Assembly: GCF_000022565.1 (NCBI RefSeq) | Contig: NC_012483.1 | Coordinates: 2,418,001 to 2,482,000, forward strand | Direction of reading: 5' to 3' | DNA: 64,000 nt | Source of the DNA: Acidobacterium capsulatum ATCC 51196 | Lineage (GTDB): Bacteria; Acidobacteriota; Terriglobia; Terriglobales; Acidobacteriaceae | Shown: positions 48,908 to 56,522 of the stretch, piece by piece | Layout: each line of letters begins with the position of its first letter | Numbering within the stretch: position 1 is the first letter of the stretch | The notes under the pieces: generated by a model | The model's input: only the letters and a program-made list of their open reading frames with translations | What the model was told of the DNA's origin: nothing | Database searches by the model: none | Translations under genes and position numbers: made by a program

Positions 48908-49930
48908 TTAGAAATCTTCGTGAAAGGCGACTTCTCCCGCCACAGCGGTCTGATAGGCCGAGACGCGGCGCTCAAAGAAGTTGGTTAGCTCCTGCACATC
49001 TTGCAGTTCCATGAAGGAGAAAGGATTCTTCACGCCAAAGGCCGGCGCAATGCCCAGCCGTTGCAGGCGCGAGTCCGCCACATAGCCGAGATACTGGCGC
49101 ATGTCACGGACGGAAAGCCCAGCGACTCCACCACTCAGCAGATCCTCAGCAAATTGCGTCTCGGCATCGACGGCCTCATGCAGCATCTCGACAATGTCGG
49201 CCTCCAGTTGCGCGTCCCACAGGTCGGGTTCCTGGCTGCGGACCACGTTCACGACTTCAAAGGCAAACTCCAGATGGCAGCTTTCGTCGCGAAATACCCA
49301 GTTGGTGCCCGACGCCAGCCCATGCAGCAGACCCTTGGAGCGCAGAAAGTAGACATAAGCGAACGCCGCAAAGAAGAAGAGCCCTTCAATGCAGGCCGCG
49401 AAGCAGATCAGGTTGAGCAGGAACTGCCTGCGGTGCTCGCGCGTCTTCAACTCGTCGAGTTGCTGAATCGAGTCCATCCATTTCATGCAGAAGTCAGCCT
49501 TCTTTGAAATGGAAGGAATATTTTCGACCGCCGCAAAGGCTGCCGCGCGCGCTTCCGGGTCAGGCACATAGTTGTCGAGCAGCGTGAGATAAAACTGCAC
49601 GTGCACGGCCTCTTCATACAACTGCCGCGACAGGTAAAGCCGGGCCTCAGGCGAATTGATGTGCTTATAGAGATTCAGCACCAGATTGTTCGAAACAATC
49701 GAGTCGCCCGTGGCAAAAAATGCCACCAGCCGCTGAATCAGGTGCACTTCGGCCGGGCTCAACCGCTGCTTCAGGTCCACCAGATCGGTCTGAAAATCCA
49801 CTTCCTCGACCGTCCAGGTGTTCTTGATGCCATCGCGGAACATGTCGTAGAACACCGGATACCGCATTGGCCGCAGTGTCAGGCAGAGGCCCGGATCGAG
49901 AATCGCTTCTGGCGCTTGTACAGAGGACAT
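48908..49930 (-). CDS. nrdB: Class I ribonucleotide reductase beta subunit
   Basis: A 340-residue di-iron protein. Metal ligands appear as Asp76, Glu107, His110, Glu182, Glu216 and His219 (FFATGDSIV, EEAVHVQFY, IEGLFF, RDESCHLEF). A tyrosine at residue 114, four after His110, sits where E. coli has its radical Tyr122, so a tyrosyl-radical enzyme is likely. It generates the radical for NrdA. GGAG precedes the ATG at 49930, 12 nt after the nrdA stop. It is downstream of a cobalamin riboswitch that should silence the operon when B12 is plentiful. Confidence 0.95.
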   Translation of the reverse strand: MSSVQAPEAILDPGLCLTLRPMRYPVFYDMFRDGIKNTWTVEEVDFQTDLVDLKQRLSPAEVHLIQRLVAFFATGDSIVSNNLVLNLYKHINSPEARLYLSRQLYEEAVHVQFYLTLLDNYVPDPEARAAAFAAVENIPSISKKADFCMKWMDSIQQLDELKTREHRRQFLLNLICFAACIEGLFFFAAFAYVYFLRSKGLLHGLASGTNWVFRDESCHLEFAFEVVNVVRSQEPDLWDAQLEADIVEMLHEAVDAETQFAEDLLSGGVAGLSVRDMRQYLGYVADSRLQRLGIAPAFGVKNPFSFMELQDVQELTNFFERRVSAYQTAVAGEVAFHEDF

Positions 49931-49942
49931 CACCAACTCCTT

Positions 49943-52321
49943 TTACTGGCAGGCTTCGCAGGAGCCTGGATTTTCAAGAGAACACGCTACGGCGGCTGTG
50001 GCATTCTTGGCGCTGGCCACCGTCGTCTTCGCAATGCGGGTCGCCGGACGTGAACGCAGATAGTAGGTCGTCTTCAGGCCGCTCTTCCACGCATACATAT
50101 ACATCGAGCTGAGGCGGCCGATATTCGGCGACTCGGCAAAGAGATTCAGCGACTGGCTCTGGTCAATGAAGGGGCTGCGTTCGCGGGCCAGATCGATGAT
50201 GGCGCGCATCGGCAGCTCCCAGACGGTGCGGTAAATCTGCTTCAGGTCGTCGGGAATTCCATCGATGGCCTGCACCGAACCCTCGCCCAGCTTCAGGCGC
50301 ATGCGCAGTTCCTCGTTCCACAGGCCGCGCTCCTTCAGGTCTGTAACCAGATAGCGGTTGACCTGCAGGAACTCGCCCGAGAGGGTCTCGCGCTTGAAGA
50401 GGTTCGACACCTGCGGCTCCGTGCACTCGTAGCAGCCCACGATGGAGGCAATCGTCGCTGTCGGCGCAATGGCGATCAGCAGCGAGTTGCGCACGCCATG
50501 CTGCTGGATGCGCGCGCGCAGCGTGTTCCAGCGCGCTTCATCCGCCGGCTTCACACCCCACAGATCAAACTGCAGTTGTCCGGCCGCCAGACGCGTTTCC
50601 GCAAAGGCAGGATGTGCACCCTGCTTCTCGGCCAGTTCGCAGGAGGCCGCGAGCGCGTGATAGTAGATCTCCTCCTGAATGTGCGTGGAAAGCTGCTGTG
50701 CTTCAGGCGAATCAAATGGCATCCGCAACTGGAAGAACACGTCCTGCAGGCCCATCAACCCAAGGCCCACGGGCCGCCAGCGTGAATTTGCGCTCGCTGC
50801 CTGATGCACGGGGTAGTAGTTGATGTCGATGACGCGATCGAGCATCGGCACGGCCACGCGCACCGTCTCGGCCAGCTTCTCAAAGTCAAAAGCGCCATTG
50901 GCCACGTGCCGCGCCAGGTTGATGGAGCCGAGGTTGCACACCGCCGTCTCGTCGCGTGAGGTCACTTCAGTGATCTCGGTACAGAGGTTGGAGAGATGCA
51001 CCACATTGCCCGGTTTGCCGGTCTGGTTGCACTTCAGGTTGCAGGCGTCCTTGAAGGTCATCCAGCCGTTGCCCGTCTCGGCCAGGCTGCGCATCATGCG
51101 CGCATACAGGTCGCGCGCCTTGATCTGGCGGGCGTAGAGCTGCTCGGCCTCGGCCTTTTCATAGGCCGCGTCAAACTCCACGCCATACAGATCGGGCAAC
51201 TGTGGCACCACCTTGGGATCAAACAGCGACCACATGCCGTCTTCTTCCACACGCCGCATGAAAAGGTCGGGAATCCAGTTCGCGAGATTCAGATTGTAGG
51301 TGCGGCGCGAAAGATCCCCCGTGTTCTCGCGCAGTTCGAGAAACTGCTCCACGTCGGCGTGCCACGGCTCCAGATAGACGCAGCATGCACCCTTGCGCTT
51401 GCCGCCCTGGTTGACTGCGGCCACGGAACTGTCGAGCGTGCGCAGCCACGGCACAATGCCATTCGACAAGCCGTTGGTGGCACGAATCAGCGACCCCTCG
51501 GAGCGCACGCGGTGAAAGGCCAGCCCGATGCCACCGGAGAACTTCGACAGCAGCGCCACGTCTTTGTAAGTGTCGTAGATCGATTCGAGCGAGTCAGACG
51601 GCGAATCATGCAGATAGCAGGACGACATCTGCGGATGCTTGGTGCCGGAGTTGAACAGCGTCGGCGAACTCGGCATATAGTCATGCGAGGCGATCAACCG
51701 GTAGAACTCGATGGCCTCATGCGGCGTGCCCGCGAGCCCGCAGGCCACACGCAAAAAGAAGTACTGCGGCGTCTCAATCACCTTGCGCGAGAGCGGGTCG
51801 CGCAGCAGATACCGGTCATAGACCGTGCGCAGGCCAAAGAACTCAAAGCGGTCAGAGAGCTGCTCATCAATCGCGTAATTCAGCTTGCGAGCATGGGTAC
51901 GCACAAACTCAGCCGTCGCCGCATTCACCACGCCTTCCTGATGCGCATATTCAATAGACTGCGAGAACGAGTGCAGGTTCTGCCCGGCGACCTCTTTCAA
52001 AATCGTGCCCAGCAGCAGCCGTGCCGCGAGCTTGGAGTACTGCGGCTCCTCGGCGATCAGTGAGGCCGCCGTATCAATCGAGATGGCATCCAATTCGCGC
52101 GTCGTGGCTCCGTCATAGAGGCCGCCAATCGTCTTGCTGGCCACGCGAATGGCGTCCACCTGCGACAGCCCGGCGCTGCATCGCTGCACGGCACGCACAA
52201 TCTTGTTCACGTCCACGGGCTCAAGCTCGCCGTTGCGCTTGCGAACGTGCATTACCGGAATTTCTTCCTTGGCCGGGAAACCGGGCAGAGTGCCCGATAC
52301 GCTGGGGTGGGTGGTCGCCAT
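49943..52321 (-). CDS. nrdA: Class I ribonucleotide reductase alpha subunit
   Basis: A 792-residue catalytic subunit that reduces ribonucleoside diphosphates to deoxy forms. An ATP-cone domain begins at residue 25 (MHVRKRNGELEPVDVNKIVRA), giving dATP feedback control. The active-site cysteines are in QMSSCYLHDSPSDS, SNLCTEITEVTSRD (radical cysteine) and ETAVCNLGSINLARHV. The C-terminus ends NPGSCEACQ, the re-reducible cysteine pair. The ATG at 52321 follows GAAGGAGAGCAGTA. The leader has a cobalamin riboswitch and a hairpin that can mask this ribosome-binding site. Confidence 0.96.
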   Translation of the reverse strand: MATTHPSVSGTLPGFPAKEEIPVMHVRKRNGELEPVDVNKIVRAVQRCSAGLSQVDAIRVASKTIGGLYDGATTRELDAISIDTAASLIAEEPQYSKLAARLLLGTILKEVAGQNLHSFSQSIEYAHQEGVVNAATAEFVRTHARKLNYAIDEQLSDRFEFFGLRTVYDRYLLRDPLSRKVIETPQYFFLRVACGLAGTPHEAIEFYRLIASHDYMPSSPTLFNSGTKHPQMSSCYLHDSPSDSLESIYDTYKDVALLSKFSGGIGLAFHRVRSEGSLIRATNGLSNGIVPWLRTLDSSVAAVNQGGKRKGACCVYLEPWHADVEQFLELRENTGDLSRRTYNLNLANWIPDLFMRRVEEDGMWSLFDPKVVPQLPDLYGVEFDAAYEKAEAEQLYARQIKARDLYARMMRSLAETGNGWMTFKDACNLKCNQTGKPGNVVHLSNLCTEITEVTSRDETAVCNLGSINLARHVANGAFDFEKLAETVRVAVPMLDRVIDINYYPVHQAASANSRWRPVGLGLMGLQDVFFQLRMPFDSPEAQQLSTHIQEEIYYHALAASCELAEKQGAHPAFAETRLAAGQLQFDLWGVKPADEARWNTLRARIQQHGVRNSLLIAIAPTATIASIVGCYECTEPQVSNLFKRETLSGEFLQVNRYLVTDLKERGLWNEELRMRLKLGEGSVQAIDGIPDDLKQIYRTVWELPMRAIIDLARERSPFIDQSQSLNLFAESPNIGRLSSMYMYAWKSGLKTTYYLRSRPATRIAKTTVASAKNATAAVACSLENPGSCEACQ

Positions 52322-52326
52322 TACTG

Positions 52327-52362
52327 CTCTCCTTCATCTCCACACGACAAAAGAAGGAAGAG
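52327..52362 (-). promoter_or_regulatory. Hairpin able to sequester the nrdA Shine-Dalgarno
   Basis: On the minus strand CTCTTCCTTC (52362-52353) pairs with GAAGGAGAG (52335-52327), nine base pairs with one bulged T and a 17-nt loop. The second arm contains the nrdA ribosome-binding site. It lies between the riboswitch and the ATG, so it could be the expression platform. Confidence 0.6.
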
Positions 52363-52434
52363 ACAGCGCATGCCCGTGCTGCAGGCACATGACACCACTG
52401 CCACATCCTCTCCCCTCGGAGATTCCGCGAATGT

Positions 52435-52606
52435 CTTCGTGGCAGGTCTTCGGACTCGCAGGCTGCCTATTTGCTCCCGCTTCCCAGCCCATGCCCGGGC
52501 CAGTGCTTACCCTTGGAGCTTTCGTTCCTGCTTACCGCTGCGGGGCAGTTCCGGAATTGCACCGGATTCCCTTTTCAGCCGGATTTCTCGATCCGGCACC
52601 GCGAAG
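52435..52606 (-). promoter_or_regulatory. Cobalamin (B12) riboswitch controlling nrdA-nrdB
   Basis: The minus strand carries the aptamer core: GGGAATCCGGTGCAATTCCGG, then AACTGCCCCGCAGCGGTAAGC (the B12-box region of the ligand core), and near the 3' end GCGAGTCCGAAGACCTGCC, the conserved closing element. CTTCG (52606-52602) pairs with CGAAG (52439-52435) as the closing P1 stem. It sits 114 nt upstream of the nrdA ATG. Known B12 riboswitches in this place repress B12-independent class I reductase genes in organisms that also have a B12-dependent class II enzyme. Confidence 0.92.
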
Positions 52607-52613
52607 TAAAACC

Positions 52614-52642
52614 ACCGTATCAGGCACATCTGGGTGAGTCAA
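52614..52642 (-). promoter_or_regulatory. Promoter of the riboswitch-nrdA-nrdB transcript
   Basis: On the minus strand TTGACT (52642-52637), 17-nt spacer, TACGGT (52619-52614). Transcription would begin about at the 5' edge of the riboswitch (52606), as expected. Confidence 0.6.
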
Positions 52643-52803
52643 ACGCTAAATATTGTGGTGCTTGTGCAAATGTGGAAGCCCCTGTGTGAATCGCGTCCAT
52701 GTGCTTTCAGTGGCGCAGTTTGCGCAAAATGTGTCGCGCGGCCAAGGCTTCATGCAGAGCGCCGCAGCCTCGGCTGTGTACCATGGCGAGAGCATTGCCC
52801 CGC

Positions 52804-55800
52804 ATGAATTCTTCGCTGCATCTGCGCCGCCTTTTGTTTGCGCTTGCCCTCACGCTGAGCGCCTGTGCCGCTCGCGCGCTCGACCCGCGCGTGCCGCTGC
52901 GGCAGGATGGCGCGCAGGTCTGGCAGACCGAGAGCGGATTGCCGCAAAACACTGTCCATTCGATTTTGCAGACGCGTGACGGCTTTCTATGGGCTGCCAC
53001 TGAAGGAGGACTGGTGCGCTTTGACGGCGAGCAGTTCACCGCCTTCACCAGCCGGAAGAATAAGGGCTTGCCGAGCGACCTCATCTATCACCTCATGCAG
53101 AGCCGAGACGGCTCGCTCTCAGACACACTCTGGATCAGCACGGCAGCCGGCGTCGCCCGCGAGCGCAATGGGCACTTTCACTCCTGGCCCACCGGCGAGA
53201 CCTATGCCACCTTTCAGGACCGCGCCGGAGACATCTGGGCGCTGACAGCTTCCGGCATTGAGCGCTTCACCGGGGGCCGCTTCATGCTGGCCACCGAGGC
53301 CACGCTCACCGAGGCCAGCAGCATGCTGCAAACGCCGGATGGCGCGCTCTGGGTGAGCAGCAGCGAGGGCCTGCTGCGCGCCGCAGCCGGGTCCAGCCAT
53401 TTCGTGGTGGTGGGCGCGCGTGTCCCGGTGCAGGCGATGGCGCCCGGCCCCGGGCACACACTCTGGGCTGGCACCCCCACGGGCGTAGAAGTATGCACGG
53501 CAAAAGACTGCAGCACGCTGCACGTGTTGGGTCTGTCCGGTCCTTTTTTTGTCTCCGCGCTCGCGCCTTCGACAACTTCGCCAGACAACATGTGGGTCGG
53601 CACGGATGAAGGCCTCTTCCTCGTGGGCCACCATCACGCCCGCCGTTACGGAATAAAAGATGGCCTGCCCTCGGGCCAGATCAATTTTCTCTTTCATGAT
53701 CGTGAAGGCGCGCTGTGGATCGGCACCAATCGCGGCCTGGCGCGCTTTGCCAACGGCCTGATGGAATCGCTGCCGAGCCGCAGCGAAGTGGCCGGCAACA
53801 TCGTGCTCTCAGCTTATGAAGACCGCGAGGGCGATCTGTGGCTCGGCTTTGAATCCAATGGACTCGGCGTGCTGCGCAGTCTGGCCTTCTCCAGCCTCAC
53901 GGTTCGCGATGGCCTGGCCGGCAATTATGTGCTCTCGGTCACGCAGGACACTCATGGCACCCTTTGGGCAGGCACCAACGGAGCCGGGCTCAGCGGCGAC
54001 AGTGACGGTCACTTCACCACGCTCACCACCGCGCAGGGACTTTCCAGCAACATCGTCATGGCGCTTGCGCCGGGCCGCGACGGCACCCTATGGGCAGGCA
54101 CTCCCGATGGGCTGGATGAGATTCGTAACCATCACGTGCGCATTTTCACCACGGCCGATGGCCTGCCTGATGATTTTGTGCGCTCGCTCTTCGTCGATGC
54201 ACTGGGGACGCTCTGGATCGGCACCCGCCGGGGACTCACGCGGTACTCCGGCGGACAATTCACCACGTATACCGATCTGGACGGCCTCGGCGGCAACCTG
54301 ATCGGCGCCATGCTTGAAGACCGCCGCGACCATGCCCTGTGGGTTGCCACGCTGGGCGGTCTCTCCCGGCTGCGCAACGGAAAATTCCAGAACTTCACAA
54401 CCGCCGATGGCCTCTCCAGCAACATTGTCACCGCGCTTTATCAGGATGCGCAGGGCACGCTCTGGATCGCCACCAAGGGCGGCGGCCTCGACCGCTACCA
54501 GAACGGCCATTTCACCAGCATCTCGTCCAAAGCCACGGGTCTGCCCGAAAGCATCTACGGCATTCTTGGCGACACGCGCGGCTACCTGTGGCTCAGCTCG
54601 ACGCATGGCATTGATCGCGTCAGCGAGGAAGCACTCAACCGCTTCGCCGCGCACCAGATTCGCAACCTGCCGATCGCCACATTTGGCGCGTCAGACGGCA
54701 TGGGCATCAGCGAGTGCAGCAGCGGCGGACATCCGGCAGCGTGGCGCGCGGCAAATGGAACGCTCTGGTTCGCAACTCTCAAGGGGCTGGCCACGGTGAA
54801 TCCCGCGCACATGGCCATGGATCGCGTGCCGCCGCTGGTCGCGCTCGAGAGTGTGCGCATCGATGATGCACCTGTGCCGCTCGCTGCGCATCTGCGCGTG
54901 CCGCCGGGCCGCACGCGCGTGGCCTTCCACTATGCGGGCCTCAGCTTTGCCGCGCCGCAAAAGGTGCGCTACCGCTATCAGCTCAGCGGCTTTGACCCCC
55001 GCTGGATCAACGCCGGAAACCAGCGCACCGCCTACTACACCAACCTGCCGCCCGGGCGTTACACCTTTCGCGTGCTGGCCTCAAATCAGGACGGCCTCTG
55101 GTCGCAGAACGCTGCAGTGGTCGCGATCACCGTGGAGCCGCAGGTTTACCAGACATGGTGGTTCCGCCTGTTGCTGGTGCTCGGCGTGGCCTTGCTGATC
55201 TACCTTGAATATCGCCGCCGCGTGCGCCGTGTGCGCTCAGAGTTTCAGGCCGTATTGCGCGAGCGCACCCGCATCGCACGCGAAATTCACGACACGCTGG
55301 CCCAGGGCTTCGCGGCAGTCTCGGTGCAGCTTGAGGTGGTTTCGCGCCTGCTGCCCAACGCCACCGAAGGCGCGCGTCACGCCCTCGACACCGCTCGTTC
55401 GCTTGCACGCAGCAGCCTGCAGGACGCCCGCACCTCCATCTGGGACCTGCGCTCGCAGAGCAGCGAGCAGGAAGATCTCGCCACGCGCCTGCGCAAACTG
55501 GCCGATCATCTTTGCGCGCCCGCAAATATCAAGGCGCAGCTAGAGGTGAATGGAGCCTATCGCCCGCTGACTCCGGAAGTGGAAACCGAGCTGACGCGCA
55601 TCGCGCAGGAAGCGATCGTCAACGCTGTTCGCCACTCCGAAACCGCATCGATTGCCCTGCGTCTCAGCTTTCATGAGCGACAAATTGAGCTCTCCGTGCG
55701 GGATAATGGCAGAGGATTCTCCGGCGCACCGCCTGCCGCGCGTCCCGGGCACTATGGCATCACGGGGATGCACGAGCGCGCCGAACGCATCGGAGGCAAG

Positions 55801-55881
55801 CTGACCATCGAGAGCCGCCCCGGCGAAGGCACCGAGGTACATCTGACGCTGCCTTTGAAAAGGGACGGAGGAGAAAAATGA
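52804..55881 (+). CDS. Hybrid beta-propeller sensor histidine kinase
   Basis: A 1025-residue kinase. After a signal or lipobox-like start (LALTLSACAARALD) come many two-component-propeller repeats of about 40-45 residues, each with patterns such as DGLPSGQINFLFHDREGALWIGTNRGL, then a Y_Y_Y domain, one membrane helix (WWFRLLLVLGVALLIYLEY, about residue 785), a HisKA_3 helix (REIHDTLAQGFAAVS, phospho-His about residue 829) and a HATPase domain with NGRGFSG. It senses a periplasmic signal, possibly a carbohydrate, and phosphorylates the NarL-type regulator that overlaps its end (ATGATG). Start chosen at 52804; an ATG at 52783 is possible. Confidence 0.9.
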   Translation: MNSSLHLRRLLFALALTLSACAARALDPRVPLRQDGAQVWQTESGLPQNTVHSILQTRDGFLWAATEGGLVRFDGEQFTAFTSRKNKGLPSDLIYHLMQSRDGSLSDTLWISTAAGVARERNGHFHSWPTGETYATFQDRAGDIWALTASGIERFTGGRFMLATEATLTEASSMLQTPDGALWVSSSEGLLRAAAGSSHFVVVGARVPVQAMAPGPGHTLWAGTPTGVEVCTAKDCSTLHVLGLSGPFFVSALAPSTTSPDNMWVGTDEGLFLVGHHHARRYGIKDGLPSGQINFLFHDREGALWIGTNRGLARFANGLMESLPSRSEVAGNIVLSAYEDREGDLWLGFESNGLGVLRSLAFSSLTVRDGLAGNYVLSVTQDTHGTLWAGTNGAGLSGDSDGHFTTLTTAQGLSSNIVMALAPGRDGTLWAGTPDGLDEIRNHHVRIFTTADGLPDDFVRSLFVDALGTLWIGTRRGLTRYSGGQFTTYTDLDGLGGNLIGAMLEDRRDHALWVATLGGLSRLRNGKFQNFTTADGLSSNIVTALYQDAQGTLWIATKGGGLDRYQNGHFTSISSKATGLPESIYGILGDTRGYLWLSSTHGIDRVSEEALNRFAAHQIRNLPIATFGASDGMGISECSSGGHPAAWRAANGTLWFATLKGLATVNPAHMAMDRVPPLVALESVRIDDAPVPLAAHLRVPPGRTRVAFHYAGLSFAAPQKVRYRYQLSGFDPRWINAGNQRTAYYTNLPPGRYTFRVLASNQDGLWSQNAAVVAITVEPQVYQTWWFRLLLVLGVALLIYLEYRRRVRRVRSEFQAVLRERTRIAREIHDTLAQGFAAVSVQLEVVSRLLPNATEGARHALDTARSLARSSLQDARTSIWDLRSQSSEQEDLATRLRKLADHLCAPANIKAQLEVNGAYRPLTPEVETELTRIAQEAIVNAVRHSETASIALRLSFHERQIELSVRDNGRGFSGAPPAARPGHYGITGMHERAERIGGKLTIESRPGEGTEVHLTLPLKRDGGEK

Positions 55882-56522
55882 TGGACGACACTACCCACAC
55901 CGCAACCATCCGCATTCTTGTGGTGGATGACCATCACATCGTCCGCCAGGGGCTGGTCGCGCTGCTGAACACGTTGCCCGGCTTTGAAGTCATTGCCGAG
56001 GCCGGCGACGGCGTCGAGGCCATCGCGCTGCATCGTGAGCATCAGCCCGACATCACCATCATGGACCTGCGACTGCCGCGGATGAATGGCGTCGAGGCCA
56101 TCACGCGCATTCGGGAGGAATCTCCGGGCGCTCGCATCGTGGTGCTCACCACTTTTGACGGCGATGAGGATATCTATCGTGCCCTGCAGGCAGGTGCCCG
56201 AGGCTACCTGCTCAAGGGCATGGACGCGGACGACCTTACCGCCGCCATCCGCTCGGTGCATGCGGGCAAATCACGCATTCCCACGGTGGTGGCCGAGCGA
56301 CTCGCCGAACGCATGAGCGGCTCTGAACTGACCGCCCGCGAACTCGATGTGCTGCGCCTCATCGTGCAGGGCCGCAGCAACCGCGAAATCGCGGCCGATC
56401 TGCACATCTCTGAGGCCACCGTGAAAACCCACATCAACAACCTGCTCAGCAAGCTGGGCGTGAGCGACCGCACGCAGGCAGCCACCACGGCGCTGCAACG
56501 CGGCCTCGTGCATCTGGAGTAG
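55878..56522 (+). CDS. NarL/FixJ-type response regulator
   Basis: A 214-residue regulator. The receiver has Asp17-Asp18, the phosphoacceptor Asp63 (ITIMDLRLP) and Lys113 (YLLKGMD). The LuxR-type HTH is LTARELDVLRLIVQGRSNRE then IAADLHISEATVKTHINNLL. The ATG at 55878 overlaps the kinase stop with GGAGGAG before it, so the pair is coupled. Target genes are not evident; the next gene, for an exported protein, is on the same transcript. Confidence 0.95.
   Translation: MMDDTTHTATIRILVVDDHHIVRQGLVALLNTLPGFEVIAEAGDGVEAIALHREHQPDITIMDLRLPRMNGVEAITRIREESPGARIVVLTTFDGDEDIYRALQAGARGYLLKGMDADDLTAAIRSVHAGKSRIPTVVAERLAERMSGSELTARELDVLRLIVQGRSNREIAADLHISEATVKTHINNLLSKLGVSDRTQAATTALQRGLVHLE

Follow-up and report, generated by a model that had tools for sequence, protein, structure and literature searches.

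Among the regulons of cobalamin riboswitches, isozymes of B12-dependent enzymes form a recognised category (PMC3766115). It is established for Streptomyces that a B12 riboswitch controls the class Ia genes nrdABS and that nrdJ provides the alternative reductase (Borovok et al. 2006, cited in PMC4991794). As relayed in that citing article, the S. coelicolor system resembles the locus studied here in combining a cobalamin riboswitch on class Ia nrdAB with an AdoCbl-dependent nrdJ in the same genome, but control of transcription is reported there, whereas the platform described below, from the Acidobacteriaceae, looks translational, with masking of the Shine–Dalgarno (SD) sequence coupled to the P13 hairpin. 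In delta-proteobacteria endowed with nrdJ, B12 elements have been reported ahead of the B12-independent nrdDG (PMC545781); the isozyme logic is alike, even though the target is NrdDG (class III, anaerobic) instead of a class I enzyme. Regarding the expression platform, it was proposed for Priestia megaterium metE, and tested by mutation, that the 3' side of P13 frees or blocks a downstream OFF hairpin (PMC10653944). There, as predicted here, L5–L13 kissing stabilises P13, while the 3' side of the ligand-free P13 pairs with the 5' side of the OFF hairpin; yet the OFF hairpin is a transcription terminator and the target metE, whereas our locus would use an SD-masking hairpin to control nrdAB. 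Finally, the genome under study has a metE riboswitch of its own, which shares its aptamer family with that of nrdAB and likewise precedes a B12-independent isozyme, though a different gene.

Among the papers searched, none described B12-riboswitch control of nrdAB in Acidobacteria. The type of switch is known from Streptomyces; what is new here is the lineage and the details of the expression platform. Our main reading, to which we assign a probability of roughly 0.78, is that a class-I cobalamin riboswitch would repress the translation of nrdAB when adenosylcobalamin (AdoCbl) is plentiful.

Aptamer and Target Genes

The window, i.e., the whole 64-kb stretch of DNA that was analysed, carries the leader and both genes on its minus strand (−), to which all coordinates below refer unless otherwise indicated. 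From the sequence alone, the original prediction had placed a full B12 aptamer with matching P1 ends in the leader. The covariance search bears this out, since the Rfam Cobalamin model (RF00174) matches positions 52618-52424 with 116.6 bits (E 1.4e-28; gathering score 31.5) and all of its positions (1-189/189) are covered, which makes the element a full-length class-I cobalamin riboswitch aptamer, while the P1 ends are complementary by eye (CUUCG near 52605 and CGAAG at 52439-52435). The span initially proposed runs from the promoter to the SD; P13/L13, P14 and the NrdR box (see below) were not mentioned in the prediction. We infer that the nrdAB leader holds a genuine vitamin B12 sensor, with AdoCbl as the predicted ligand. 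A small hairpin may also form from CGAAGACAUUCG (52439-52428), which would compete with the 3' strand of P1; similar sequences occur in the sister leaders L148-L150, and this hairpin is possibly a component of the switch.

About 100 nt separate the aptamer from the start codon of nrdA (52321). On its 3' side, nrdA and nrdB form an apparent operon: nrdA (49943-52321) encodes the alpha subunit of an oxygen-dependent class I reductase with an ATP-cone (792 aa; PF02867, PF00317 and PF03477; TIGR02506 over its cut-off), and nrdB (48908-49936) the beta subunit (342 aa; PF00268, E 1.3e-77). By these matches, the reductase linked to the riboswitch is B12-independent. The closest named relatives of this NrdA belong to Terriglobus, Edaphobacter and other Acidobacteriaceae.

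Expression Platform

Immediately 3' of the aptamer lies a conserved hairpin, P13 (UCUCCGAGGGGAGA, 52422-52409), the loop of which (L13) faces the CCCC of L5 (52545-52542), the aptamer half of a kissing loop. A comparison of 47 unique leaders ahead of related nrdA genes shows that the L5 base at 52545 (C or U, the first of the loop) changes in step with its counterpart in L13 at 52413 (G or A): the combination is C-G in 40 leaders and U-A in seven, and no mixed pair was observed. On the NrdA tree, the leaders with U-A fall into separate groups (L151/L152; L176; L168-L171/L228). Moreover, 98% of the P13 cells are paired in an alignment of 17 leaders, versus 41-74% when the arms are slid. The predicted L5–L13 contact is the kissing loop known from corrinoid riboswitches (PMC9600662, PMC10653944).

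In the same 17 leaders, the RNAalifold consensus features a second helix, the anti-sequester P14, in which the 5' arm GAUGUGGCAGUG (52407-52396) pairs with the 3' arm CGCUGUCUCUUC (52368-52357). Here too the computation reveals covariation, with 94% of pairing versus 48-74% when slid and three pairs showing double changes; permuting the 3' arms among leaders matched this level in 11 of 500 trials. The 3' arm overlaps the SD-masking (anti-SD) strand CUGUCUCUUCCUUC (52366-52353), which in the predicted fold pairs with GAAGGAGAGCAG (52335-52324), the SD-bearing 3' arm of the masking hairpin, just ahead of the AUG at 52321. Adjacent to the latter arm, GGAGAU (52341-52336) is the predicted partner, in the ON fold, of the 5' arm of P13 (AUCUCC, 52423-52418).

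A hairpin with the SD in its 3' arm, as originally predicted, is present (CUGUCUCUUCCUUC with GAAGGAGAGCAG), but its stability as a plain hairpin is ordinary (z -1.12; 33 of 200 shuffles equally stable), and we dropped thermodynamic stability by itself as evidence. Nor do we count the complementarity between the 5' arm of P13 and the SD-proximal sequence as an element conserved in its own right, since its z averages just -0.43 across the 47 leaders and is -0.35 for the window. The coupling of SD masking to P13 behaves differently from chance. Using the formation of P13 as a stand-in for ligand binding, the cost of opening the SD is 10.4 kcal/mol with P13 and 5.1 when P13 is forbidden. While 4 of 160 shuffled versions of the intervening sequence equal the occlusion reached with P13 formed, none of the 160 attains its dependence on P13 (5.4 kcal/mol, vs. 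-0.1 +/- 1.35 in shuffles). If the folded RNA ends at the start codon, two folds lie no more than 0.2 kcal/mol apart, and opening the SD costs 6.7 kcal/mol with P13 vs. 1.2 without. With about 70 nt of the open reading frame folded in, the effect of P13 falls to about 1 kcal/mol, so that the energy balance varies with the amount of coding sequence included. On paper, the nrdAB leader is thus predicted to be a bistable switch. Across the 47 leaders, the coupling between P13 and the SD persists in a weaker form (1.39 versus 0.47; Wilcoxon p 0.004, a value that ignores the kinship of the leaders), while occlusion of the SD, taken by itself, does not exceed that of shuffles. In its details, the predicted OFF hairpin varies across the family, and its best support comes from the window, L010 and L150.

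According to the mechanism that we propose, in which we infer the identity of the ligand, the direction of the response and the translational mode, bound AdoCbl would let L5 kiss L13 and fix the P13 hairpin, the arms of which would then no longer be free to lengthen P14. CUGUCUCUUCCUUC would pair with GAAGGAGAGCAG, hiding the SD and turning nrdAB off, and the B12-dependent NrdJ would be used instead. Without AdoCbl, the arms of P13 would extend P14, and together they would engage both the masking strand and GGAGAU; this ligand-free fold would leave the SD open for NrdAB to be made.

The main rival reading keeps a genuine aptamer but has it act chiefly on transcription, either through Rho, which can terminate untranslated leaders, or through attenuation, and not by hiding the SD. 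B12 control of nrdABS transcription is indeed what is reported for Streptomyces (Borovok et al. 2006, as cited in PMC4991794), and a strong hairpin (52388-52370) followed by a pyrimidine-rich tract is available in our leader. However, this tract is just moderately rich in U and also serves as the SD-masking strand, while the P13-coupled masking described above exceeds chance. Moreover, a scan of the minus strand across the leader (52200-52800) detected no intrinsic terminator, which makes translation the likelier level of control. We consider a mainly transcriptional switch unlikely, though worth keeping in mind, and favour translational repression, as the original prediction had done; the lack of a terminator on this strand and the two near-isoenergetic folds differing in SD exposure both speak for that mode.

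Promoter and Probable NrdR Box

The promoter predicted on the minus strand corresponds to a -35 hexamer TTGACT (52642-52637) and, 17 nt away, a weak -10 hexamer TACGGT (52619-52614). A generic sigma-70 scan did not call it at the nrdA leader, and its identification rests on the TTGACT hexamer and on the relatives, many of which feature TTGACC/T-17-TATAGT at the same place. The intergenic region is shared with a divergent two-component pair (window 52699-55881 and 55878-56522, plus strand), composed of a Reg_prop/Y_Y_Y histidine kinase and a LuxR-type response regulator.

Directly upstream of the -35 hexamer lies a probable NrdR box, CCACAATATTTAGCGT (52658-52643). It is the only site within three mismatches of ACACWATATATWGTGT, which we take to be the NrdR box consensus, in the 64-kb window (0.06 expected), and itself shows three mismatches. 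In many relatives, NrdR-like boxes occur at an equal offset, and frequently another such box lies 30-31 bp downstream, over the -10 hexamer; in the window, this second tandem box is degenerate. The genome encodes nrdR (191.8 bits). NrdR probably controls the transcription of nrdAB alongside the riboswitch, and dual control by NrdR and B12 appears likely from the sequence. An NrdR-like box (four mismatches) also precedes nrdJ (L005:695-710).

Association with nrdJ

The original prediction implied a class II nrdJ elsewhere in the genome, which consists of one contig of 4.13 Mb. The RNR barrel domain has exactly two matches there, NrdA and a class II NrdJ at C1:1899004, the latter over the cut-offs of both NF005122 (1500.7 bits vs. 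859) and TIGR02504 (546.6 vs. 400). RF00174 identifies three sites in this genome: nrdAB, metE (aptamer at L007:10158-9957), which codes for the methionine synthase that needs no B12, and a TonB receptor, for which the best NCBIfam match, below its cut-off, is a B12 receptor (BtuB-like). metE and BtuB-like receptors are classical repressed targets of cobalamin riboswitches. The B12-dependent MetH was found as well. In contrast, the family CbiC/CobH was searched in the genome and not found, and the cell therefore probably imports (scavenges) its B12, a conclusion that rests on this single marker family.

To what extent aptamer and nrdJ go together was read from a family sample of 348 genomes, 90 of which have an NrdA-like match at E <= 1e-180. 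Most sampled genomes, including both of the same genus, lack a close NrdA match, and this patchy distribution of class I nrdAB in the family suggests repeated gain or loss. A close NrdA together with a readable leader was available for 66 genomes, of which 51 have both aptamer and nrdJ, none has the aptamer alone, one has nrdJ alone and 14 have neither. All 51 aptamers were confirmed with Rfam models (46 by RF00174 and five by RF01689, AdoCbl-II). The sole exception, G174, has kept nrdJ, while the aptamer of its nrdA leader has decayed (19.6 bits, L156:4123-4015, minus strand). Mapped onto the NrdA tree, the absences of the aptamer need two changes only, both concordant with the loss of nrdJ. 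The association is consistent, but rests on about two independent evolutionary losses. In one relative, the opposite strand carries a second, divergent RF00174 aptamer (L159:4626-4824), located some 390 nt upstream of the nrdA leader.

These distributions bear on the possibility that the aptamer is a relic without present effect and that nrdAB answers to NrdR alone. Such a situation would fit the probable NrdR box, the presence of nrdR and the decayed aptamer of G174, but we regard it as very improbable: in the window the conserved core and the kissing loop, co-varying in the relatives, are intact, and the aptamer is absent from the two lineages without nrdJ. As for the opposite sign, i.e., activation of nrdAB by B12, as described for one corrinoid riboswitch (PMC10653944), we hardly credit it, the SD being less accessible once P13, which kissing would stabilise, has formed, and repression being the response that fits a B12-independent isozyme in a genome where metE also lies behind a cobalamin aptamer. 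Repression remains our preferred direction: as the cell can fall back on a B12-dependent enzyme, nrdAB is most likely silenced in the presence of B12.

The five RF01689 sites (L168:1277-1352, L169:4082-4158, L170:4081-4157, L171:1277-1353 and L177:406-482; 54.7-60.5 bits) all lie in the nrdA leaders of genomes of one genus (g32), which have kept nrdJ and the kissing-loop hairpin. With RF00174 in the 46 other relatives, the aptamer class was apparently swapped at a conserved site in these genomes. It is conceivable, although we would not wager on it, that the nrdAB genes of Acidobacteriaceae share a hitherto undescribed translational platform, in which P13 and the co-varying P14 are set against the SD-masking hairpin, under RF00174 in most genomes or RF01689 in the five of that genus. 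Since this P13/L13 platform would lie beneath two aptamer classes, with the aptamer absent where nrdJ is absent, the regulatory site would have outlived a change of sensor.

Discussion

Our results extend the B12-gated choice between ribonucleotide reductases, known mainly from Streptomyces, to the Acidobacteriaceae. Rfam-confirmed aptamers were also found ahead of nrdA in Rhodanobacter, Dyella, Lysobacter, Micromonospora, Nonomuraea, Nocardioides, Acidothermus and Bryobacteraceae; judging by the presence of the aptamer, the extension also reaches nrdA of Rhodanobacter, Dyella, Lysobacter and further actinobacteria. For the leader itself, we supply a testable model with defined strands, while the aptamer missing from two nrdJ-less lineages provides natural evidence for the logic of an isozyme switch. 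Altogether, this suggests that B12 supply may shape the synthesis of DNA precursors in bacteria that appear to scavenge the vitamin.
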